Below are positions 4,620-13,916 of a stretch of DNA of 49,593 nucleotides, piece by piece (within the stretch, counting starts at the first letter, position 1; each line of letters starts with the position of its first letter). The position numbers and the translations under genes are program-made. Origin of the DNA: Bacteroidaceae bacterium (GTDB lineage: Bacteria; Bacteroidota; Bacteroidia; Bacteroidales; Bacteroidaceae). The stretch spans positions 1 to 49,593 of the forward strand of contig JAGBTN010000013.1 of the NCBI GenBank assembly GCA_017631315.1, in the 5' to 3' direction. The notes beneath the pieces were generated by a model that was given only the letters and a program-made list of their open reading frames with translations, ran no database searches and was not told the DNA's origin.

Positions 4620-7600
4620 ATGAGAAGCAATTATCTATCGCGTATTATTTTCTCGCTTTTTCTTGGAGTAATGGCAATGCCGACATTCTCGCAGGTCTCG
4701 AACGACAACGAGGATGAAGTGAACAAAGTGGACCATCGTTCAGCGCACGACTATGTGCCTGGCCAGGTGCTGGTAAAGATGAAGGATGGCTCGCCAGCCA
4801 ACGTGCAACGCGTGAAGGGCAAATTCAAGAGTGCCGGCATTGGCCAACTCGATGCGGTGCTCCGCGAGTTTGGCGTGGAGGGCATGGAACAATTGCTTCC
4901 GCACGAGAAGCCCGGACGCACACTGCGCAAGGCAAAGGCATTCAATGGCGATGTCATTCAGGAGCGCGACCTCTCGCAACTCTACCTCTTGCAGATGAAC
5001 GCAGAGAAGGCGATGGAGACACAGCAACTCATCGAACGCCTCTCGGCACTGCCCGAAGTGGAATTTGCAGAGCCCAACTACAAGGCATACATCACGGCAG
5101 ACGCAAACAGTTTTGGCTACGAACCTCTGTTCAGTCAACTTTGGGGGCTTTCTGCCATCAATATGCCCCAACTCTGGGGCGTTAAGAAGATTTCGCAGAA
5201 GCGTCCTGTCATTGCCATTCTGGACACCGGCATCGACATCGCTCATCCCGACCTCGCTGCAAACGTCTGGACCAATGCTGCCGAGGCAGAGGGCGAGGAA
5301 GGCTACGACAATGACAACAACGGCTTCAAGAACGACATTCACGGCTGGGACTTCATCAACCAGACGGGCACCATTCGCGACTTCAACGGCCACGGCACCC
5401 ATTGTGCCGGCATTGCCGCTGCCATTGGCGACAACCGTTTGGGTGTGGTCGGTGCCAACCCCGATGCCCTCATCATGCCCATCACCATCATGCAGAGCGA
5501 TGGCACAGGCGACCTCGCCACCATCATCCGCGGCATAGACTATGCCATTGCCATGGGGGCCGACGTCCTGAGCATGAGTATTGGCACGTATGCCACCTCT
5601 TTGGCCTTCGAGCAGGCGCTGGGCAGAGCCTATCAGAACGCCATCCTCGTGGCTGCTGCCGGCAATGATGGCTACTGCTTAAATCACGACCATCCCGAAA
5701 GAGGTCAAAAGGAACCCATGCCCATGTTTCCTGCTGCCTACAACTTTGTGCTGGGCGTGCAGGCATCTGCTGCTTCCGGAGCAATGGCAGGTTTCTCTAA
5801 CTACGACGACAATGGTGCATTCTTCACCGATTGGGGCGAGGACAAACTCTACAACTACGAGTTGCGTGCCCCTGGTGCCAGCATCATGAGCATTTGGCCC
5901 GGTGGCAAATACCGTTCGCTAAACGGCACATCTATGGCTTGCCCATTGGTGGCAGGTGCTTTGTCGCGACTGATTCAATGCAAGGAAATCGGCAGCAAGG
6001 AAGAATTGTTTGGCGACCTCATCCACTCCACAACACGCGTTGGCGACCTCGACATCTATAAAGCCTACCAGTGGAACGACACGAACCGCCGGCCTTCGCT
6101 GTCGTTTGTCACCTACACCATCGACGACAGCGATGGCGACGGACGTCTGGATGCAGGAGAAACCATAGCCATCTATCCCACCTTGCGCAACGACTGGGGA
6201 ACGGCTGCAAACATACAGATAAGCATTGAACCGGACGAACCCGAAGACCCGAATATCGTGGAATTTCTGGATGCCAATGTGGCTTTTGGCTCAGACCTGA
6301 GCAGTTATGCCAAGAACACCGCAAGCACACCGCTCCGCATCAAAATCAGCGAGGCCTGTGCAGACAACCGCCACATCAAACTCCTGCTCAAGGCAAAATG
6401 CGACAATATCACTTCCGACATGGAACAGCCCATTGTCCTGGTTGCAAATAATATGGTTGAAATAGGAGGCGTGATAAGCGAAAATACCACCCTTACTGCC
6501 GACCAGGTTTACTATGTGGCTAACGACCTTGCCATTATGGAAGGTGCAACACTCACCATCGAGCCGGGTACACGCCTGGAATTTGCTGCCGGCAAATCTC
6601 TTTCTTCCTTTGGAAAACTTCAGGCAAAAGGCACTCCCGAGAAACCAATCATTTTCACTGGACACGCAGGAGAAGGCCCATGGGGGTATATAAATAGTCA
6701 CAAACCAACGGGAGTGTTAAGAAACGGTAGCTATATATGGACCAATAGTGACCAAACACTGTTTACTCTTGTAGAAACCAACGAAACACCAATACAAATA
6801 CTTAGCAAACGTACTGCTTATCGATATTATAATCCGAACGAAGAAAATAGCCCTGGAAGAACATTCCCTTTATATTATTATATGAAGGACTTTCAAGATT
6901 ATTTGAACACTTCTAGTACTAATCAGATGGATATCCCTTATTGTAAATTAGCAGATCCATCCTTTTTGACACCCTATGTTCTGAAGGCATTGGAGGCTTT
7001 TAATAATTATATAGGTCAATGGCCATCAGAACCGGATGAATTACATACTAAAAGTTTTATTTGTGAATTTTCGCCTGAAATTTTTTGGAAAAGTTATGCC
7101 TATCCGCGCGATACCATTTCATATTGCAAGATGGATGGAGGTAAGATTGTCGGAAGTCCGATTCGTAGTGTACCGCCTATTATGAATGACTGCGTGTTAG
7201 AGCCGTGTTCAGGTGACGACATTACGACTGGCATAGTGACTGTTAACGGAGAACGTAATGTGATTCAAAATATGATAGAAACAAGCGGATATGGTCAAAT
7301 AAAACCAGGCACAGAGGACCGCAAAAGTTATATTAACATGAGATTTACTAACATTGTTAATAATGACTATTGTAGACACACAATGAATTTGCCACAGTAC
7401 GCAAAAATGCCTTTTAACAATTATTTTAATAACAAAACAACAGACCCCAGATATGGCACTTATATGCTAAAGGCTTTAAGTGACGTCCCTTCCGTTTCTC
7501 GTGCAGAGCATCCGTCTTATTTAGGCACAGCACGCGAGGATTTGGTGCGACCATATATAATTGAGTTTGGGAACACGGGTAATCTCTCCGAAACCACCTA

Positions 7601-9011
7601 TGCAACTGTAGACTTAAGTAATATGCCCGACCGCCCCTATGCAGAAGCACATGGCATTGTCTGGAAAGTGGTGGTCAACGGTTACGACGCCCAGGATGAG
7701 TTCGAACAACTGCCACCGCTTGGCGTGGGACGCCACAAGTTCGAGGTCTATTTCAATCGCCCCATGAACAAGGAGGTGGCACCACAGATTTCCTTTGGTG
7801 TGCGTGAACCCTACACACAACAACCTGTTGCCGAAGACGGCAGTTGGAACGAAGAGGGAACCATCTACACCGCATACAAGACCATCACGGGCAAGACAAA
7901 GAGCGACGGCCTGAACCGCATCTACGTCTATGGCGCAGAAGACAACGAGTTCTTCGAGATTCCATACGAGAAGTCACGCTTCAACATCAACATCCAGGCT
8001 GCCGGCTCTATGGCAACAGGCTTTATGGCAGAAGCAGGACTGGGCCGTGTGAACCTGACCTGGAACAACGAAGAGAACAACTTCGACGACGCCATGGGAT
8101 TCAACATCTATCGCTACAACTACGTAGAGAAAGACTCACTCGACAGATATGGAAAGCCCACCGGCGTGAAGATTGTTGTCCCGGACACCATTCGCATCAA
8201 TCAGGAAATAGTTGATGTGGAAGCCACAGAATACACCGACTACGAAGTCATTCCCGGCGAGACCTACTACTATTATTACAAGGTGCTCTCGACCGACCTG
8301 AAGGAATACGACATCTCGAATGTTGTGACCGTTACGCCCCAGACAAGCGAGCTGGGCGATGCCAACGGCAGTGGCGATGTGGATGTGGCAGACGTCATCA
8401 CCACCGTCAACTATGCTGCAGGACAGCAACCCAAGCCATTCATCTTCGAGGCAGCCGACATGAATGCCGACCTCGGCATAGACATCCTCGACGTCATAGG
8501 CATCATCAAGAAGATTATGAACCCCGGTGCAGACGCTCAAGCACTTGCAGAAGCAACAGCCACCTATACCATAGAGAACGGCACACTCTATGTGGAAAGC
8601 CCCGTAGCACTGGCCGGTGTGCAAGTGCAATTGGCAATGGACGAAGGCGAGAACGAAGTGAGAGTGGCAGAAGGGCTGAATGGCTTTGAACATACATCGG
8701 CATGGCTCAGCGAGAACGACTATCTGTTCCTTGCCTACAACATGAACAGCAAGACTCTGCCTGCAGGCAAACACGCTCTGCTGCACATAGGCAATGGCTT
8801 GGTTGCACAAATGCGCCTGGCCGATAGCGCAGGTCGCAACGTTGAGGCAATCGGCGACGATGCAACAAAGATTAACCGCATGGCAACCGACGTGATGACT
8901 GTTCCGGGCATATACGACCTGCAAGGCCGAAAGATTACCAACGACAGCCAGTGGCAAGGCCAATTGCCAAAGGGTGTATACATCGTCAACGGCAAGAAGG
9001 TGGTACGCTAA
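4620..9011 (+). CDS. Large exported subtilisin-family (S8) serine protease with dockerin-like module and C-terminal tail
   Basis: The protein has 1463 residues. It starts with a signal peptide (1-24) and a propeptide-like region (YVPGQVLVKMKD, about 45-155). The S8 catalytic domain spans about 170-475 with Asp202 (LDTG), His258 (GHGTHCAG), oxyanion Asn349 (AAAGND) and Ser438 (NGTSMACP). Beta-rich regions follow, then a dockerin-like pair of calcium loops at about 1245-1303 (GDANGSGDVDVADV and ADMNADLGIDILDV). A cohesin-like stretch follows, then a Prevotella tail (IYDLQGRK...KGVYIVNGKKVV) that probably directs secretion or surface attachment. Residues about 691-1002 (DNA 6690-7625) are clearly more AT-rich than both flanks. 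The gene is 15 bp ahead of the multi-cohesin gene. The substrate is unknown; the active site looks intact. Confidence 0.9.
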   Translation: MRSNYLSRIIFSLFLGVMAMPTFSQVSNDNEDEVNKVDHRSAHDYVPGQVLVKMKDGSPANVQRVKGKFKSAGIGQLDAVLREFGVEGMEQLLPHEKPGRTLRKAKAFNGDVIQERDLSQLYLLQMNAEKAMETQQLIERLSALPEVEFAEPNYKAYITADANSFGYEPLFSQLWGLSAINMPQLWGVKKISQKRPVIAILDTGIDIAHPDLAANVWTNAAEAEGEEGYDNDNNGFKNDIHGWDFINQTGTIRDFNGHGTHCAGIAAAIGDNRLGVVGANPDALIMPITIMQSDGTGDLATIIRGIDYAIAMGADVLSMSIGTYATSLAFEQALGRAYQNAILVAAAGNDGYCLNHDHPERGQKEPMPMFPAAYNFVLGVQASAASGAMAGFSNYDDNGAFFTDWGEDKLYNYELRAPGASIMSIWPGGKYRSLNGTSMACPLVAGALSRLIQCKEIGSKEELFGDLIHSTTRVGDLDIYKAYQWNDTNRRPSLSFVTYTIDDSDGDGRLDAGETIAIYPTLRNDWGTAANIQISIEPDEPEDPNIVEFLDANVAFGSDLSSYAKNTASTPLRIKISEACADNRHIKLLLKAKCDNITSDMEQPIVLVANNMVEIGGVISENTTLTADQVYYVANDLAIMEGATLTIEPGTRLEFAAGKSLSSFGKLQAKGTPEKPIIFTGHAGEGPWGYINSHKPTGVLRNGSYIWTNSDQTLFTLVETNETPIQILSKRTAYRYYNPNEENSPGRTFPLYYYMKDFQDYLNTSSTNQMDIPYCKLADPSFLTPYVLKALEAFNNYIGQWPSEPDELHTKSFICEFSPEIFWKSYAYPRDTISYCKMDGGKIVGSPIRSVPPIMNDCVLEPCSGDDITTGIVTVNGERNVIQNMIETSGYGQIKPGTEDRKSYINMRFTNIVNNDYCRHTMNLPQYAKMPFNNYFNNKTTDPRYGTYMLKALSDVPSVSRAEHPSYLGTAREDLVRPYIIEFGNTGNLSETTYATVDLSNMPDRPYAEAHGIVWKVVVNGYDAQDEFEQLPPLGVGRHKFEVYFNRPMNKEVAPQISFGVREPYTQQPVAEDGSWNEEGTIYTAYKTITGKTKSDGLNRIYVYGAEDNEFFEIPYEKSRFNINIQAAGSMATGFMAEAGLGRVNLTWNNEENNFDDAMGFNIYRYNYVEKDSLDRYGKPTGVKIVVPDTIRINQEIVDVEATEYTDYEVIPGETYYYYYKVLSTDLKEYDISNVVTVTPQTSELGDANGSGDVDVADVITTVNYAAGQQPKPFIFEAADMNADLGIDILDVIGIIKKIMNPGADAQALAEATATYTIENGTLYVESPVALAGVQVQLAMDEGENEVRVAEGLNGFEHTSAWLSENDYLFLAYNMNSKTLPAGKHALLHIGNGLVAQMRLADSAGRNVEAIGDDATKINRMATDVMTVPGIYDLQGRKITNDSQWQGQLPKGVYIVNGKKVVR

Positions 9012-9026
9012 AACATTAAGAGAGAA

Positions 9027-11096
9027 ATGAAAAGTAACATAATTTCTATATTGACAGCCCTGCTTCTGTGCTTTGGCATGGGAGCAAGGGCCGACAATGT
9101 GGTGACCATAGGCACAGCAAGCGGTGCACCCGGAGAAGAGGTAACGGTAAGCGTCGGCCTTGCCAATACAGATGCCGTCTCGTCGCTGCAGTTGAGCATC
9201 CCCATGAATGAGGAACTGACGTTCGTCAATGGCTCGGCAGTGCTCGGCAGCCGCTGTACGGACCATAGCGTAACGGCAGGCGTGAAGGACAACATGCTGA
9301 ACATCATGGTCTATTCGATGAACCTTGGTGCCATTAGTGGCAACGACGGAGAAGTGGTGTCGTTTCGTCTGAAGTTGGGCAACCAGCCAACAACGATTGC
9401 GCTGACGGGCTCGAAACTCATCCTGACCGACACAGACGGTGAGAATGTTGCAGGAAGCACACAAAATGGCAGTGTCGGCATTCGGTGTGCAAAAGCACAA
9501 TACAGTTCAATGTCTGTTGACTTTGGCAGTGTTCCCATTCGCAGCACATACACACGAACCTTTTCTGTAACAAACGTCGGCAACGAGCCATTGGAGATAA
9601 CAGGACTGCAGTTCAATACTTATCCAACCGACTTCTCCTCGACAACCTCATTCCCGTTGACAATTGCTGCCGGTGGAAATGCAAGTATCAACATTACTTA
9701 TGCTCCGCAGGAACGTGGCACAATCAACGAAACAGTAAAGGTGGTATGCAACAGCATCTCCAAACTGAACAACATTGCCCTGAAGGCTCAGCCTTTTGCT
9801 GTGAACGAATTGCATGTGCAACCCACATCGGGCATTGCAGATGAAGTGGTTACCGTAAGTCTGACAATGAACAACATGGATGCCATCAGTGGCTTCCAGT
9901 TTGAATTCGCTTTGCCACCGGCATTGACTTACATGGAGAACAGTTTCCAGTTGTCCGACCGAAAGCAAGGACATTCTGTCGTGCAGACACTGAAGGATGG
10001 CGTCTTACGTATCATCGGATATTCGTCGAGCGACACTCCCTTCAGTGGTAATGACGGCGAATTGGCAACCATGCAGTTCCGCCTGAGCGGTCGTAACAGC
10101 GTAACATTGAAGGCCAGCAAGGCTATCTTGACAGCCACCATCAACAACCAGGCAGAAAATGTATGTTCGGCCCATTATGGTGCAACCGTTACCATCAAAA
10201 GTCCGCGCATCAATGCTGGAAGTACGCTGAACATGAACTCCACACCCGTTACGCAAGATGCCATTAGCAACTTTGTGGTTCGTAACTATGGCAATGCACC
10301 ATTGACCATCAGCCGAATAGTCTTCGACAAGGACGACTTATACATCGGGCAGGAATTGCCGTTGACAATAGCAGCAAACAAAAATGTTACGCTCAATGTT
10401 GTCAATCCGAGCATTGCAGAAGGCGACTTCAGTGCCCTCATGCAAATCTATTCGAACGACCCGGAACAACGTCTCTGGAATGTGTCAATAACAGGCAATC
10501 GTTTTGCTCCGAACTACCTGTCGTTCTCAACTCCGGACATCTATGCAGACCAAAACTTGTCTGTAAATGTCTCGATGAGCAACTATGATGCCATCAATGG
10601 TTTGCAGTTCGATGTGGAATATCCGTCTGCCTACTTTGAGCCGACAGATGAACTTATAACCACAGCCCGCTCGGCTGGACTGAGTGTATCGCAACGCAAT
10701 ATCAATGCAAACACAGTACGACTGTTCTTTTACTCACTCTCCGATGCAGAGATAGCATCAGGCGATGGAGAAGTGCTGACATTCAAACTTCGAGCAAAAG
10801 GCGAGACGCCGGCAGGAAACTATTCGCTGCGCATCACAAACATCAAACTGGGTACGGCTAACATGCAGGACAAGTATGCAGGCACAAACATCACCAGTAA
10901 TTTCAACGTAAAAAACTCTATTGTTGGAGATGTCAACCGAGATGGACTCGTTGATAGTGGAGATGTAATGGCCATATATTCGTCAATGGCAGGAAACAGT
11001 GACCCTGAAATACAGACAAGGTCCGACGTGAACAGCGATGGTTTGGTGGATAGCGGAGATATAATGGCTATATACAGCATTATGGCAGGTAACTAA
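9027..11096 (+). CDS. Secreted protein with three cohesin-like domains, two Hydin-like spacers and a dockerin
   Basis: The protein has 689 residues with a signal peptide at 1-22 (ending ARA). Three repeats of one beta-sandwich type start near residues 23, 257 and 494. Each has an APGEEVTVSV-like opening, a DA(V/I)SxLQ segment and an SGNDGE or SGDGE turn, as in cohesin domains. Between them lie two spacers (about 155-255 and 395-490) of the choice-of-anchor-D/Hydin type (VDFGSVPI...TNVGNEPL). Residues 633-689 form a dockerin with two calcium loops (GDVNRDGLVDSGDVMAIY and SDVNSDGLVDSGDIMAIY). No sorting tail follows. Cohesins bind dockerins in cellulosomes, so it could link the upstream protease and other dockerin proteins. 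That role is inferred from domain content. Confidence 0.8.
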   Translation: MKSNIISILTALLLCFGMGARADNVVTIGTASGAPGEEVTVSVGLANTDAVSSLQLSIPMNEELTFVNGSAVLGSRCTDHSVTAGVKDNMLNIMVYSMNLGAISGNDGEVVSFRLKLGNQPTTIALTGSKLILTDTDGENVAGSTQNGSVGIRCAKAQYSSMSVDFGSVPIRSTYTRTFSVTNVGNEPLEITGLQFNTYPTDFSSTTSFPLTIAAGGNASINITYAPQERGTINETVKVVCNSISKLNNIALKAQPFAVNELHVQPTSGIADEVVTVSLTMNNMDAISGFQFEFALPPALTYMENSFQLSDRKQGHSVVQTLKDGVLRIIGYSSSDTPFSGNDGELATMQFRLSGRNSVTLKASKAILTATINNQAENVCSAHYGATVTIKSPRINAGSTLNMNSTPVTQDAISNFVVRNYGNAPLTISRIVFDKDDLYIGQELPLTIAANKNVTLNVVNPSIAEGDFSALMQIYSNDPEQRLWNVSITGNRFAPNYLSFSTPDIYADQNLSVNVSMSNYDAINGLQFDVEYPSAYFEPTDELITTARSAGLSVSQRNINANTVRLFFYSLSDAEIASGDGEVLTFKLRAKGETPAGNYSLRITNIKLGTANMQDKYAGTNITSNFNVKNSIVGDVNRDGLVDSGDVMAIYSSMAGNSDPEIQTRSDVNSDGLVDSGDIMAIYSIMAGN

Positions 11097-11137
11097 ATGA
11101 AGGAAACAAACAATAGCAATTGAAACTATTAGTAAAT

Positions 11138-12337
11138 ATGAAAGAAAAGATTTTATTATTGTCACTCTCTTTCTTAATTGCATGGAACATTGGACTACAT
11201 GCTGACAACATAATCTCAGTTAATCCAATAAGCATCAGGCCAGGAAGCACCGCAGAACTTGTAGTAAGTCTGGAGAATGATGCTGATTTTAAGGTCTATG
11301 CTTATGACTTTCGTTTGTATCTGCCTGATGGAATAGAGGTTGATACAAAAGCCAATGGCTCATTCAACTTTACACTTAAGGAACGCAATGCTGACCATTC
11401 CACGAATGTGCAGAAGACTTCGGATGGTGCCATACAGTTCGGTGTCAATAGTCCAACACTCTATCTGACAGGCGAATCCGGTCCAGTCTTGGGCATTGTG
11501 CTGAAAGCATCTGCAGAGTTGGCAGAAGGTTCTTATCAGGCAACTATTGAACGTATCACCTATGCCAACAAGGAGGCACAGACAGTGCATCCTGCAAACA
11601 TTTCCTTCAACATCGAAGTGAAAAACTTGGTTGTTCTCGACGAGAACTCTACAGAAATGCCTGTAGCCACCAATGGAACAGTGGATGTCAATGTCCTGCG
11701 AACAATCAAGGGTGGAAATTGGCAAACAATCGTCCTGCCTTTTGACATGACTGAAGAACAAGTAAAAGATGCTTTTGGAGCGGATGCAGAACTGGCAGAC
11801 TTCGCTGGATATGAGGCTCAAAAGAATGTAGAAGATGTTGTCGGCATAAAAGTTAAGTTCAATACTATTACTTCAATAGAAGCAAATCATCCCTGTATTA
11901 TAAAAATCAGTCAAGACATTACGTCATTCTCCGTTAAAGGTGTAACAATTGAAGAACCGGAAGAAGAACCAACAGTGGCAACCGTCAAGAGAACCCGAAA
12001 ACAGTGGAGTGAACTGATTGGAACCTATGTGGCACAGACAGAGGTCCCAGAGTACACCTTGTTTATAAATGGCAACAAATTCTATTACTCCGATGGTACC
12101 ATTAAAATGAAAGGCTATCGTGCGTATTTTGATTTCTATGATGTACTAACAAAAATAGAAGGAGGTTCGGGAGTGAAGATGTTCTTTGATTCTGATGATG
12201 AAGAAGATGGCATTAAAGGAATAGATCAAGAGGTACGGACAAAGGATGATATTTATGACCTCAGTGGCCGAAAGATATCTCAACGCCTACAGCAAGGTAT
12301 CTATATTGTTAATGGGAAGAAAGTAATCGTTAAATAA
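11138..12337 (+). CDS. Secreted protein with N-terminal cohesin-like domain and Prevotella C-terminal tail
   Basis: The protein has 399 residues from ATG 11138; a TTG at 11120 extends the frame but sits before the better start. The signal peptide ends at LHA (about residue 22). Residues 23-165 (ISVNPISIRPGSTAELVVSL... to ISFNIEVKN) resemble the cohesin-like repeats of the upstream protein. The middle (VDVNVLRTIKGGNWQTIVLPFDM...) is of a type common in secreted Prevotella proteins and has no known function. The end, DIYDLSGRKIS...GIYIVNGKKVIV, is the same tail type as in the S8 protease. It lies 41 bp after the multi-cohesin gene on the same strand and is probably co-transcribed. It may be a surface-anchored binding partner. 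Confidence 0.7.
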   Translation: MKEKILLLSLSFLIAWNIGLHADNIISVNPISIRPGSTAELVVSLENDADFKVYAYDFRLYLPDGIEVDTKANGSFNFTLKERNADHSTNVQKTSDGAIQFGVNSPTLYLTGESGPVLGIVLKASAELAEGSYQATIERITYANKEAQTVHPANISFNIEVKNLVVLDENSTEMPVATNGTVDVNVLRTIKGGNWQTIVLPFDMTEEQVKDAFGADAELADFAGYEAQKNVEDVVGIKVKFNTITSIEANHPCIIKISQDITSFSVKGVTIEEPEEEPTVATVKRTRKQWSELIGTYVAQTEVPEYTLFINGNKFYYSDGTIKMKGYRAYFDFYDVLTKIEGGSGVKMFFDSDDEEDGIKGIDQEVRTKDDIYDLSGRKISQRLQQGIYIVNGKKVIVK

Positions 12338-12347
12338 AGGAACAAAC

Positions 12348-12527
12348 ATGAGAAGGAAATATATCATGCCCTCAATAATGGTCGTTCATGTGCAGAGCGA
12401 GAGATTAATAGCAGAAAGCGGCGTGTCCTCAGACATCGGCATAGATTATGGTGGCAAGGTTGGCGAAGAAGATAATATTAATCCCGAGGTTAAATCAACT
12501 CATAATATTTGGGACGATAACTGGTAG
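12348..12527 (+). CDS. 59-residue peptide of unknown function
   Basis: ATG at 12348 follows the preceding stop by 10 bp with AGGAACAAAC before it; the stop TAG is at 12525-12527. The N-terminal part (MRRKYIMPSIMVVHVQSERL) is basic then hydrophobic, followed by a small-residue stretch (IAESGVSSDIGIDYGG) and an acidic end (HNIWDDNW). Similar short proteins with a YIxPxI-type opening and a tryptophan/aspartate end are, as far as I recall, common after secreted-protein genes in Prevotella, but no function is known to me. It is too short to be caught by a 60-residue cut-off. It is the last gene before the terminator at 12577. Confidence 0.65.
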   Translation: MRRKYIMPSIMVVHVQSERLIAESGVSSDIGIDYGGKVGEEDNINPEVKSTHNIWDDNW

Positions 12528-12576: not shown

Positions 12577-12606
12577 GAAAGAAGGGGCCTTCCGGCTCCT
12601 TCTTTC
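12577..12606. terminator. Strong hairpin between convergent genes
   Basis: GAAAGAAGGGGCC and GGCTCCTTCTTTC form a 13-bp stem (one G-T pair) with a TTCC loop. It separates the plus-strand secreted cluster from the convergent GH43 gene and could stop transcription from both sides. Confidence 0.8.
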
Positions 12607-13840: not shown

Positions 13841-13916
13841 TGGTAACCCGCTTGGGGCTCGAACCCAAGACCCCCACATTAAAAGTGTGATGCTCTACCA
13901 ACTGAGCTAGCGAGTC
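13841..13916 (-). tRNA. tRNA-Lys (anticodon TTT)
   Basis: The minus strand folds as a full cloverleaf. The acceptor GACTCGC pairs with GCGGGTT, the D-arm is GCTCAGTTGGTAGAGC, the anticodon loop CTTTTAA carries TTT within the stem TCACA/TGTGG, and the T arm is TTGGG/CCCAA with loop TTCGAGC. CCA is encoded. A TACCTTTG box lies 30 bp upstream and a terminator follows. Confidence 0.95.

Follow-up and report, generated by a model that had tools for sequence, protein, structure and literature searches.

The four adjacent plus-strand genes at positions 4620..12527 of the window (the whole stretch of 49,593 nucleotides that was analysed) constitute a real, conserved protease-scaffold-anchor unit. The initial annotation had read these genes as a possible surface protease assembly based on cohesin-dockerin logic, an interpretation which, overall, is partly supported by the present work: the four ORFs claimed were all recovered, with their coordinates, and the assembly is favoured by the gene order, by the co-occurrence of protease and scaffold, and by the exchange of a dockerin for a sorting tail in scaffolds that lose the anchor. 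In our reading, to which a probability of about 0.6 is assigned from sequence comparisons, the cluster would encode a cell-surface proteolytic complex of a rumen-type bacterium of the Prevotellaceae or Bacteroidaceae, with a dockerin-bearing scaffold on an anchor that carries a T9SS-like tail and the protease on the scaffold. The tail-bearing anchor is predicted to be exported and attached to the surface by the T9SS, while the scaffold, as comparison among loci supports, would be held through its C-terminal dockerin on the anchor cohesin. We infer that the S8 protease would join through its strongly conserved dockerin, with the scaffold cohesins as the most likely partners; as there are three of these, one anchored scaffold could gather up to three proteases. 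The scaffold might cross the outer membrane separately or be carried by a tail-bearing partner, and the complex would presumably cut extracellular proteins.

The first gene (4620..9011) encodes an S8 (subtilisin-family) protease of 1463 amino acids, in which a signal-like N-terminus is followed by the S8 domain, a middle region, a dockerin, a cohesin-like domain and a T9SS-like tail; by eye and by pattern, the N-termini resemble Sec signals without a lipobox. The catalytic domain (residues 166-485; 5115..6074) scored 161 bits with Peptidase_S8 (PF00082), and its Asp/His/Ser motifs, which had been described as intact, are so, with LDTG starting at residue 201, HGTH at 258 and GTSMA at 436. Among 41 S8 ORFs compared (window included, near-duplicates kept), D-T-G and HGTH are present in all 41 and the third motif reads GTSMA in 36 and GTSMS in 5. 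The claimed dockerin (residues 1243-1301; 8346..8522), the halves of which are asymmetric, was also confirmed, at 20.8 bits by hmmscan, just below the cut-off of 22.9, and at 27.5 bits, above it, in the genome search. Directly behind it lies the cohesin-like domain (PD; residues 1304-1412; 8529..8855), assigned by cross-hits of a cohesin HMM, which matches it in some loci, and by its fold, for which the best PDB matches are cohesins with TM-scores by target of about 0.5 or less, in a model of the region with a mean pLDDT of 69.5 and low confidence in the dockerin part. The protein ends in a short tail (8880..9008). Over 33 loci, the protease dockerin showed the highest mean pairwise identity of eight modules (0.66), followed by S8 (0.61), with the remaining modules at 0.31-0.48; residues 1001-1150 are as conserved as the dockerin. 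Moreover, the S8 domains cluster differently from the dockerin, PD and the scaffold, and heads seem to have been swapped onto a constant docking end.

The second gene (9027..11096) encodes the scaffold, of 689 amino acids, for which Pfam profiles gave the order Coh-ASH-Coh-ASH-Coh-Doc. The earlier description of a three-cohesin protein with its own dockerin was borne out, since PF00963 scored 75.2 bits (cut-off 24.1) over three stretches, cohesin 1 (9102..9482), cohesin 2 (9810..10196) and cohesin 3 (10518..10910), and PF00404 scored 36.8 bits (cut-off 22.9) with the dockerin (10917..11090), which is built of two nearly identical halves and forms the very end of the protein. Between the cohesins lie two ASH/DUF1573-type Ig domains (9486..9794 and 10200..10502), absent from that description, and no T9SS-like tail was found in this protein. 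The third gene encodes the anchor, of 399 amino acids when read from the ATG at 11138 (11138..12337), which is likely to be the start rather than the TTG at 11120. It had been presented as cohesin-like with a sorting tail, and the cohesin assignment holds by fold: its cohesin (11213..11620) reached 20.6 bits with PF00963, below the cut-off of 24.1, and in the AlphaFold2 model (mean pLDDT 81) the best PDB matches were cohesin-bearing scaffoldin chains and single cohesins, with TM-scores by target of 0.75-0.77 for several of the latter, the best fold matches of the anchor cohesin including the Clostridium perfringens structures 2jh2, 2vo8 and 2w1n. Profile or fold identified the modules of the cluster as cohesins and dockerins. 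Behind the anchor cohesin follow CTX (11624..12214), a conserved module that is also matched by numerous longer ORFs in related genomes, and a short T9SS-like tail (12221..12334). The tails of protease and anchor gave no match to the curated Pfam/NCBIfam tail models at E 1; both fit the published features of short CTDs (PMC11969387, available part). The fourth gene (12348..12527) encodes the 59-amino-acid peptide already noticed, the family of which recurs 3' of anchor genes in several other clusters and has weak relatives elsewhere in the genome. A terminator-like hairpin with a 13-bp stem (12577..12606, plus strand) lies 3' of it, although sigma-70 promoter and terminator scans of the region gave counts no higher than in shuffles. 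A tRNA-Lys (TTT) is encoded on the minus strand just past the cluster (13841-13916).

The scaffold is uncommon: whole-genome searches recovered it from 11 of the 139 genomes of the genus and, in a sample of 399 genomes of the family, from 16 (8 of 30 genera). Scanning of genome contigs yielded 28 loci, those labelled L070-L095 being clear scaffold relatives; many relatives come from ruminant guts, and among them is Prevotella sp. P6B1 (L085), which has the protease together with a tail-ended scaffold. After requiring scaffolds of more than 300 residues and dropping 5 near-duplicates (>95%), 38 loci were kept. In these, the order of the genes is conserved: the gene directly upstream of the scaffold, taken as the nearest ORF of 150 residues or more on the same strand, has a dockerin in all 37 assessable loci, and 35 of these have S8 in that ORF as well. 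As for the exceptions, L082 is cut by a contig end, L095 has its S8 immediately upstream in an ORF of its own, and L127 has a fragment only. Furthermore, the genomes of the genus in which the protease C-terminus is matched (E<1e-60) are exactly the 11 of 139 that bear the scaffold, the next-best match in the genus being at 4e-29. The closest relative is L070, from RUG606, with a scaffold identity of 85%; the three large genes give dN/dS values of about 0.10-0.14 against it, so the ORFs of the cluster are not due to chance. For RUG606, a Prevotellaceae genome, a protein with two cohesins and a potential for cellulosomes have been listed (PMC5830445, available part).

The main evidence that the job of the scaffold dockerin is to reach a tail-bearing cohesin comes from loci in which this dockerin is exchanged for a tail. 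Six of the 38 scaffolds are cut at the 3' end; the 32 complete ones comprise 21 that end in a dockerin and 11 that end in a tail or tail-like sequence, seven of these recognised by the tail HMM and four (L083, L086, L088, L091) by eye. The next same-strand ORF is a cohesin gene in 14 of 19 dockerin-ended loci and in none of 10 assessable tail-ended ones, a comparison that omits the dockerin-ended L057 and L090 and the tail-ended L091. Of these 14 genes, 11 have a tail by the HMM; the tail of L080 was recognised by eye, the gene of L081 is cut, and that of L094 is a 2528-residue cohesin-dockerin ORF and not the usual anchor. End types were mapped on a tree of the scaffolds from which the C-terminus had been removed (32 rows, made by a quick method and with some long branches); parsimony requires at least 10 changes, of which at least 7 are forced by supported branches. 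When 7 independent pairs were drawn 200 times, the anchor followed the dockerin in 6.3 pairs on average (4 to 7) and opposed it in 0.0, with a median p of 0.031 in the sign test (range 0.0156-0.125). L074 shows a direct fusion of scaffold cohesin 3 with CTX and a tail. Five dockerin-ended scaffolds have no adjacent anchor, and among the matches listed a full-length anchor was found elsewhere in three of these genomes and in none of the other two; the many partial anchor matches (15 genomes) arise because CTX is common. The tail-bearing scaffolds of relatives without a neighbouring anchor gene support a scaffold held by its dockerin, and the joint switch of dockerin, tail and anchor means that this dockerin most likely reaches a T9SS tail by way of the anchor cohesin. 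On these comparisons, docking of the scaffold dockerin on the anchor cohesin is likely.

The two dockerins of the cluster differ in their symmetry. At positions which we take to be those of recognition, the halves of 21 scaffold dockerins (20 orthologues and the paralogue L020; L057 was unparsable) agree at 0.732 within a protein versus 0.202 across loci, a difference reached in 0 of 5000 shuffles, while the halves of 37 protease dockerins agree at 0.172 within and 0.166 across, that is, they are asymmetric. Mirrored halves mark dual-binding type I dockerins (PMC12484212, available part), and such mirrored residues were found in the scaffold dockerins and not in the protease dockerins. A recent DNA duplication was rejected as the origin of the mirrored halves: 142 of 302 identical residues share their codon versus 113 expected on the basis of codon usage, somewhat above chance and far from a recent copy.

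The initial annotation had also supposed that these cohesins bind these dockerins. For the protease dockerin we infer the scaffold cohesins as partners, and a candidate rival partner lies just behind it in the same protein. The dockerin might pack on PD in cis or from one protease to another, leaving the protease self-contained or self-polymerising and the scaffold and anchor as a separate system that is merely co-expressed. The DOC-PD order does recur across the proteases, PD has cohesin-type fold matches, and the protease dockerin, besides being asymmetric, is strongly conserved even in L088, whose cohesin 1 has just 32% identity with that of the window. The cohesins of the tail-ended L083 and L085 gave no Pfam detection at E 0.1, and the protease dockerin is nonetheless kept there. 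Against a self-contained protease, its C-terminus is present in exactly those 11 of 139 genomes that have the scaffold, and the two adjoin in all assessable loci. Moreover, given ASH1, distances between protease dockerins follow those of cohesin 3 (0.54) more closely than those of PD (0.37), cohesin 2 (0.33) or cohesin 1 (0.25), a weak measure that ignores relatedness. Packing on PD appears unlikely, and docking of the protease on the scaffold is plausible.

The pairing of scaffold dockerin and anchor cohesin can be followed further through the dockerin dialects. Among the 13 loci with both modules, 5 pairs have a common dialect (agreement of 0.77 or more), and in each of them the identity of the anchor cohesins is 0.66 or more; in the other 73 pairs the dialect agreement is at most 0.50 and the anchor-cohesin identity at most 0.49. 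The corresponding partial Mantel r is 0.83-0.85 (n=13), or 0.66 without the three closest rows; with one locus per anchor-cohesin cluster the signal is gone (r 0.07, p 0.33, n=9), the correlation resting on three clusters of related loci. In 26 pairs of a cohesin-dockerin (Coh-Doc) protein and a tail-bearing partner, described below, coupling is likewise weak, at 0.195 versus 0.328 with the protein's own cohesin. The case is therefore not rested on this statistic. More telling are the switches: L077 and L078, from different supported scaffold clades, have both the dialect (0.77) and the anchor cohesin (0.66) in common, whereas neither is shared by L081, which is closely related to L077. In addition, in the genome of L071, where the scaffold has no neighbouring anchor, two other proteins with a nearly identical dockerin directly precede anchor genes on the same strand; in two other genomes with the anchor elsewhere such a dialect match was not found, so that this observation concerns L071 only.

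The same data bear on a further alternative, in which the modules would be calcium-stabilised stalks or spacers that do not bind each other, the patterns arising from a shared surface location and from exchange of neighbouring DNA. Cohesin-like folds are indeed known outside cellulosomes, the coupling statistic comes down to the three clusters just mentioned, and scaffold dockerin and anchor cohesin adjoin in the DNA. Nevertheless, the dockerin halves are mirrored within each protein at residues which differ between species, and the dockerin end and the anchor gene go together over independent pairs. The scaffold dockerin, moreover, is coupled to the anchor cohesin (0.87, given CTX) and not to the CTX of the same gene (-0.03, given the anchor cohesin; n=9, related loci uncollapsed), and the dialect match of L071 occurs in trans. 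Such inert spacers are considered quite improbable, and a scaffold docked on its anchor is the preferred reading.

The window cluster is one case of a wider system. In its genome (86.6% complete), 13 dockerin proteins were found, of which 10 end at the dockerin without a tail (one with 22 further residues) and the other 3 combine a dockerin, a cohesin-type domain and a tail. The idea of a protease-centred assembly is upheld for the window cluster but not for its paralogue in the same genome (L020:2267-10755), where a GLUG-like repeat protein with a dockerin, a cohesin-type domain and a tail takes the place of the protease (its GLUG-like motifs reach 17.4 bits against a cut-off of 20.5); CotH and other domains are found on further dockerin proteins encoded in this genome. 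The paralogous cluster also contains a Coh-BspA-LRR-Coh-Doc scaffold, an anchor and a 60-amino-acid peptide about 43% identical to that of the window. Tail-less proteins of 357-2291 residues ending in similar dockerins are encoded in the same genome at L187:4351-9456, L188:2127-3200, L191:1374-8249, L192:2254-7413 and L194:1843-8616; for the four giants among them (1701-2291 residues), Pfam at E 0.01 gave the dockerin alone, together with a sub-cut-off EF-hand on that of L191. CotH-domain proteins with dockerins are found at L187:9828-13751 and L189:1029-4613, and CotH proteins are reported from some cellulosomes (PMC12484212, available part). At L062:607-8264, a protein with Peptidase C10, a Spi inhibitor domain, leucine-rich repeats and a dockerin lies before a cohesin protein, so that a protease from another family has a comparable neighbourhood. 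A true plant-fibre cellulosome, which might be suggested by a multi-cohesin protein in a rumen-type organism, by the cellulosome potential listed for RUG606 and by one CotH dockerin protein that also has an F5/8 type C domain above cut-off (a fold that includes sugar-binding modules), is scarcely credible and, in the strict sense, was rejected, for the multi-cohesin protein is present but no CAZyme partners and no scaffold CBM were found: profile search at E up to 1 gave no carbohydrate-binding module in the cluster, and there were no glycoside hydrolase, esterase or lyase families in the 13 dockerin proteins (E limits 1, 0.1, 0.01 and 0.01).

Small gene pairs of a Coh-Doc protein and a tail-bearing partner were found in 26 of 30 loci of the genus, the partner cohesin being recognised in 22; such two-gene modules lie at L190:1181-2558 and in L195-L222, in 26 genomes of the genus. 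Sixty client dockerins were chosen from 12 genomes, and in all 60 the protein ends at the dockerin (58 parsed by script, at most 3 residues from the dockerin, and 2 by eye). Their likeness to the Coh-Doc dockerin is 0.804 in the own genome, 0.666 in other genomes and 0.747 among the other client genomes, values that ignore relatedness. Such clients suggest that a dockerin tag system may exist. A T9SS is indicated by a SprA/Sov protein in the genome (2638.6 bits, cut-off 200); the T9SS translocon has been described as binding substrates through their CTD (PMC10994853, available part). We propose, tentatively, that the C-terminal dockerin could be a portable surface-sorting tag replacing the T9SS C-terminal domain, with small adaptors of a cohesin and a T9SS tail carrying or catching tail-less clients, including those of about 1,700-2,300 residues, and with different dialects acting as distinct addresses within a cell; taken to its extreme, the idea would have clients hitch-hike through the T9SS already bound to the adaptor. 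If the overall reading is right, it describes a protease-bearing, non-cellulosomal cohesin-dockerin platform coupled to the T9SS, which would give Gram-negative bacteria a new route of protein display and offer a supply of new orthogonal cohesin-dockerin pairs.

Cohesins and dockerins are best known from cellulose-digesting clostridia. Searches of open-access literature, judged by titles and abstract openings, yielded no paper on a cohesin-dockerin system tied to the T9SS, and the available part of PMC11557425 mentions none of Bacteroidota, Bacteroidetes, Prevotella or protease. In the available parts of other papers, cohesins and dockerins are reported from Bacteroidetes bins (PMC6071333), and from Bacteroidetes genomes as a surprise in need of study (PMC12997984), and none is reported for the rumen Bacteroidetes genome of PMC5831590; in one consortium, the catalytic modules most often combined with dockerins are peptidases (PMC7480376).

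The known systems, as far as the available parts of their descriptions go, each share some features with the window. Clostridium thermocellum dDoc_0689 (PMC12484212) is likewise an S8 protease with a dockerin, and its reported preference for the cohesin of a cell-bound scaffoldin suggests surface anchoring; it differs in having two dockerins and in belonging to a clostridial cellulosome producer, and neither a T9SS tail nor adjoining scaffold and anchor genes are described there. Cellulosomes, amylosomes and the Limousia mucinolysome (PMC12997984) also combine a multi-cohesin scaffold, dockerin enzymes and a separate anchoring protein, but in Firmicutes and with carbohydrate-active clients, whereas protease and non-CAZyme clients, with T9SS-like tails as anchors, are those of the window, in Bacteroidota. 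The cohesin-dockerin enzyme complexes of Clostridium perfringens (PMC12997984) are non-cellulosomal, as here, yet they consist of secreted Gram-positive enzymes, with no tail-bearing anchor described in that text. The short-CTD T9SS cargo of Prevotella intermedia (PMC11969387) resembles the protease and anchor tails in the Tyr and Gly of motif B, in the GxY followed by Ile of motif D and in approximate length; cohesins and dockerins are undescribed in that text, and the window scaffold, unlike this cargo, has no such tail. Finally, in the single-cohesin anchoring proposed for Ruminococcus albus (PMC6118326), a Firmicute with glycan-cleaving enzymes, few surface-anchor cohesins face many dockerin proteins, as they do here.
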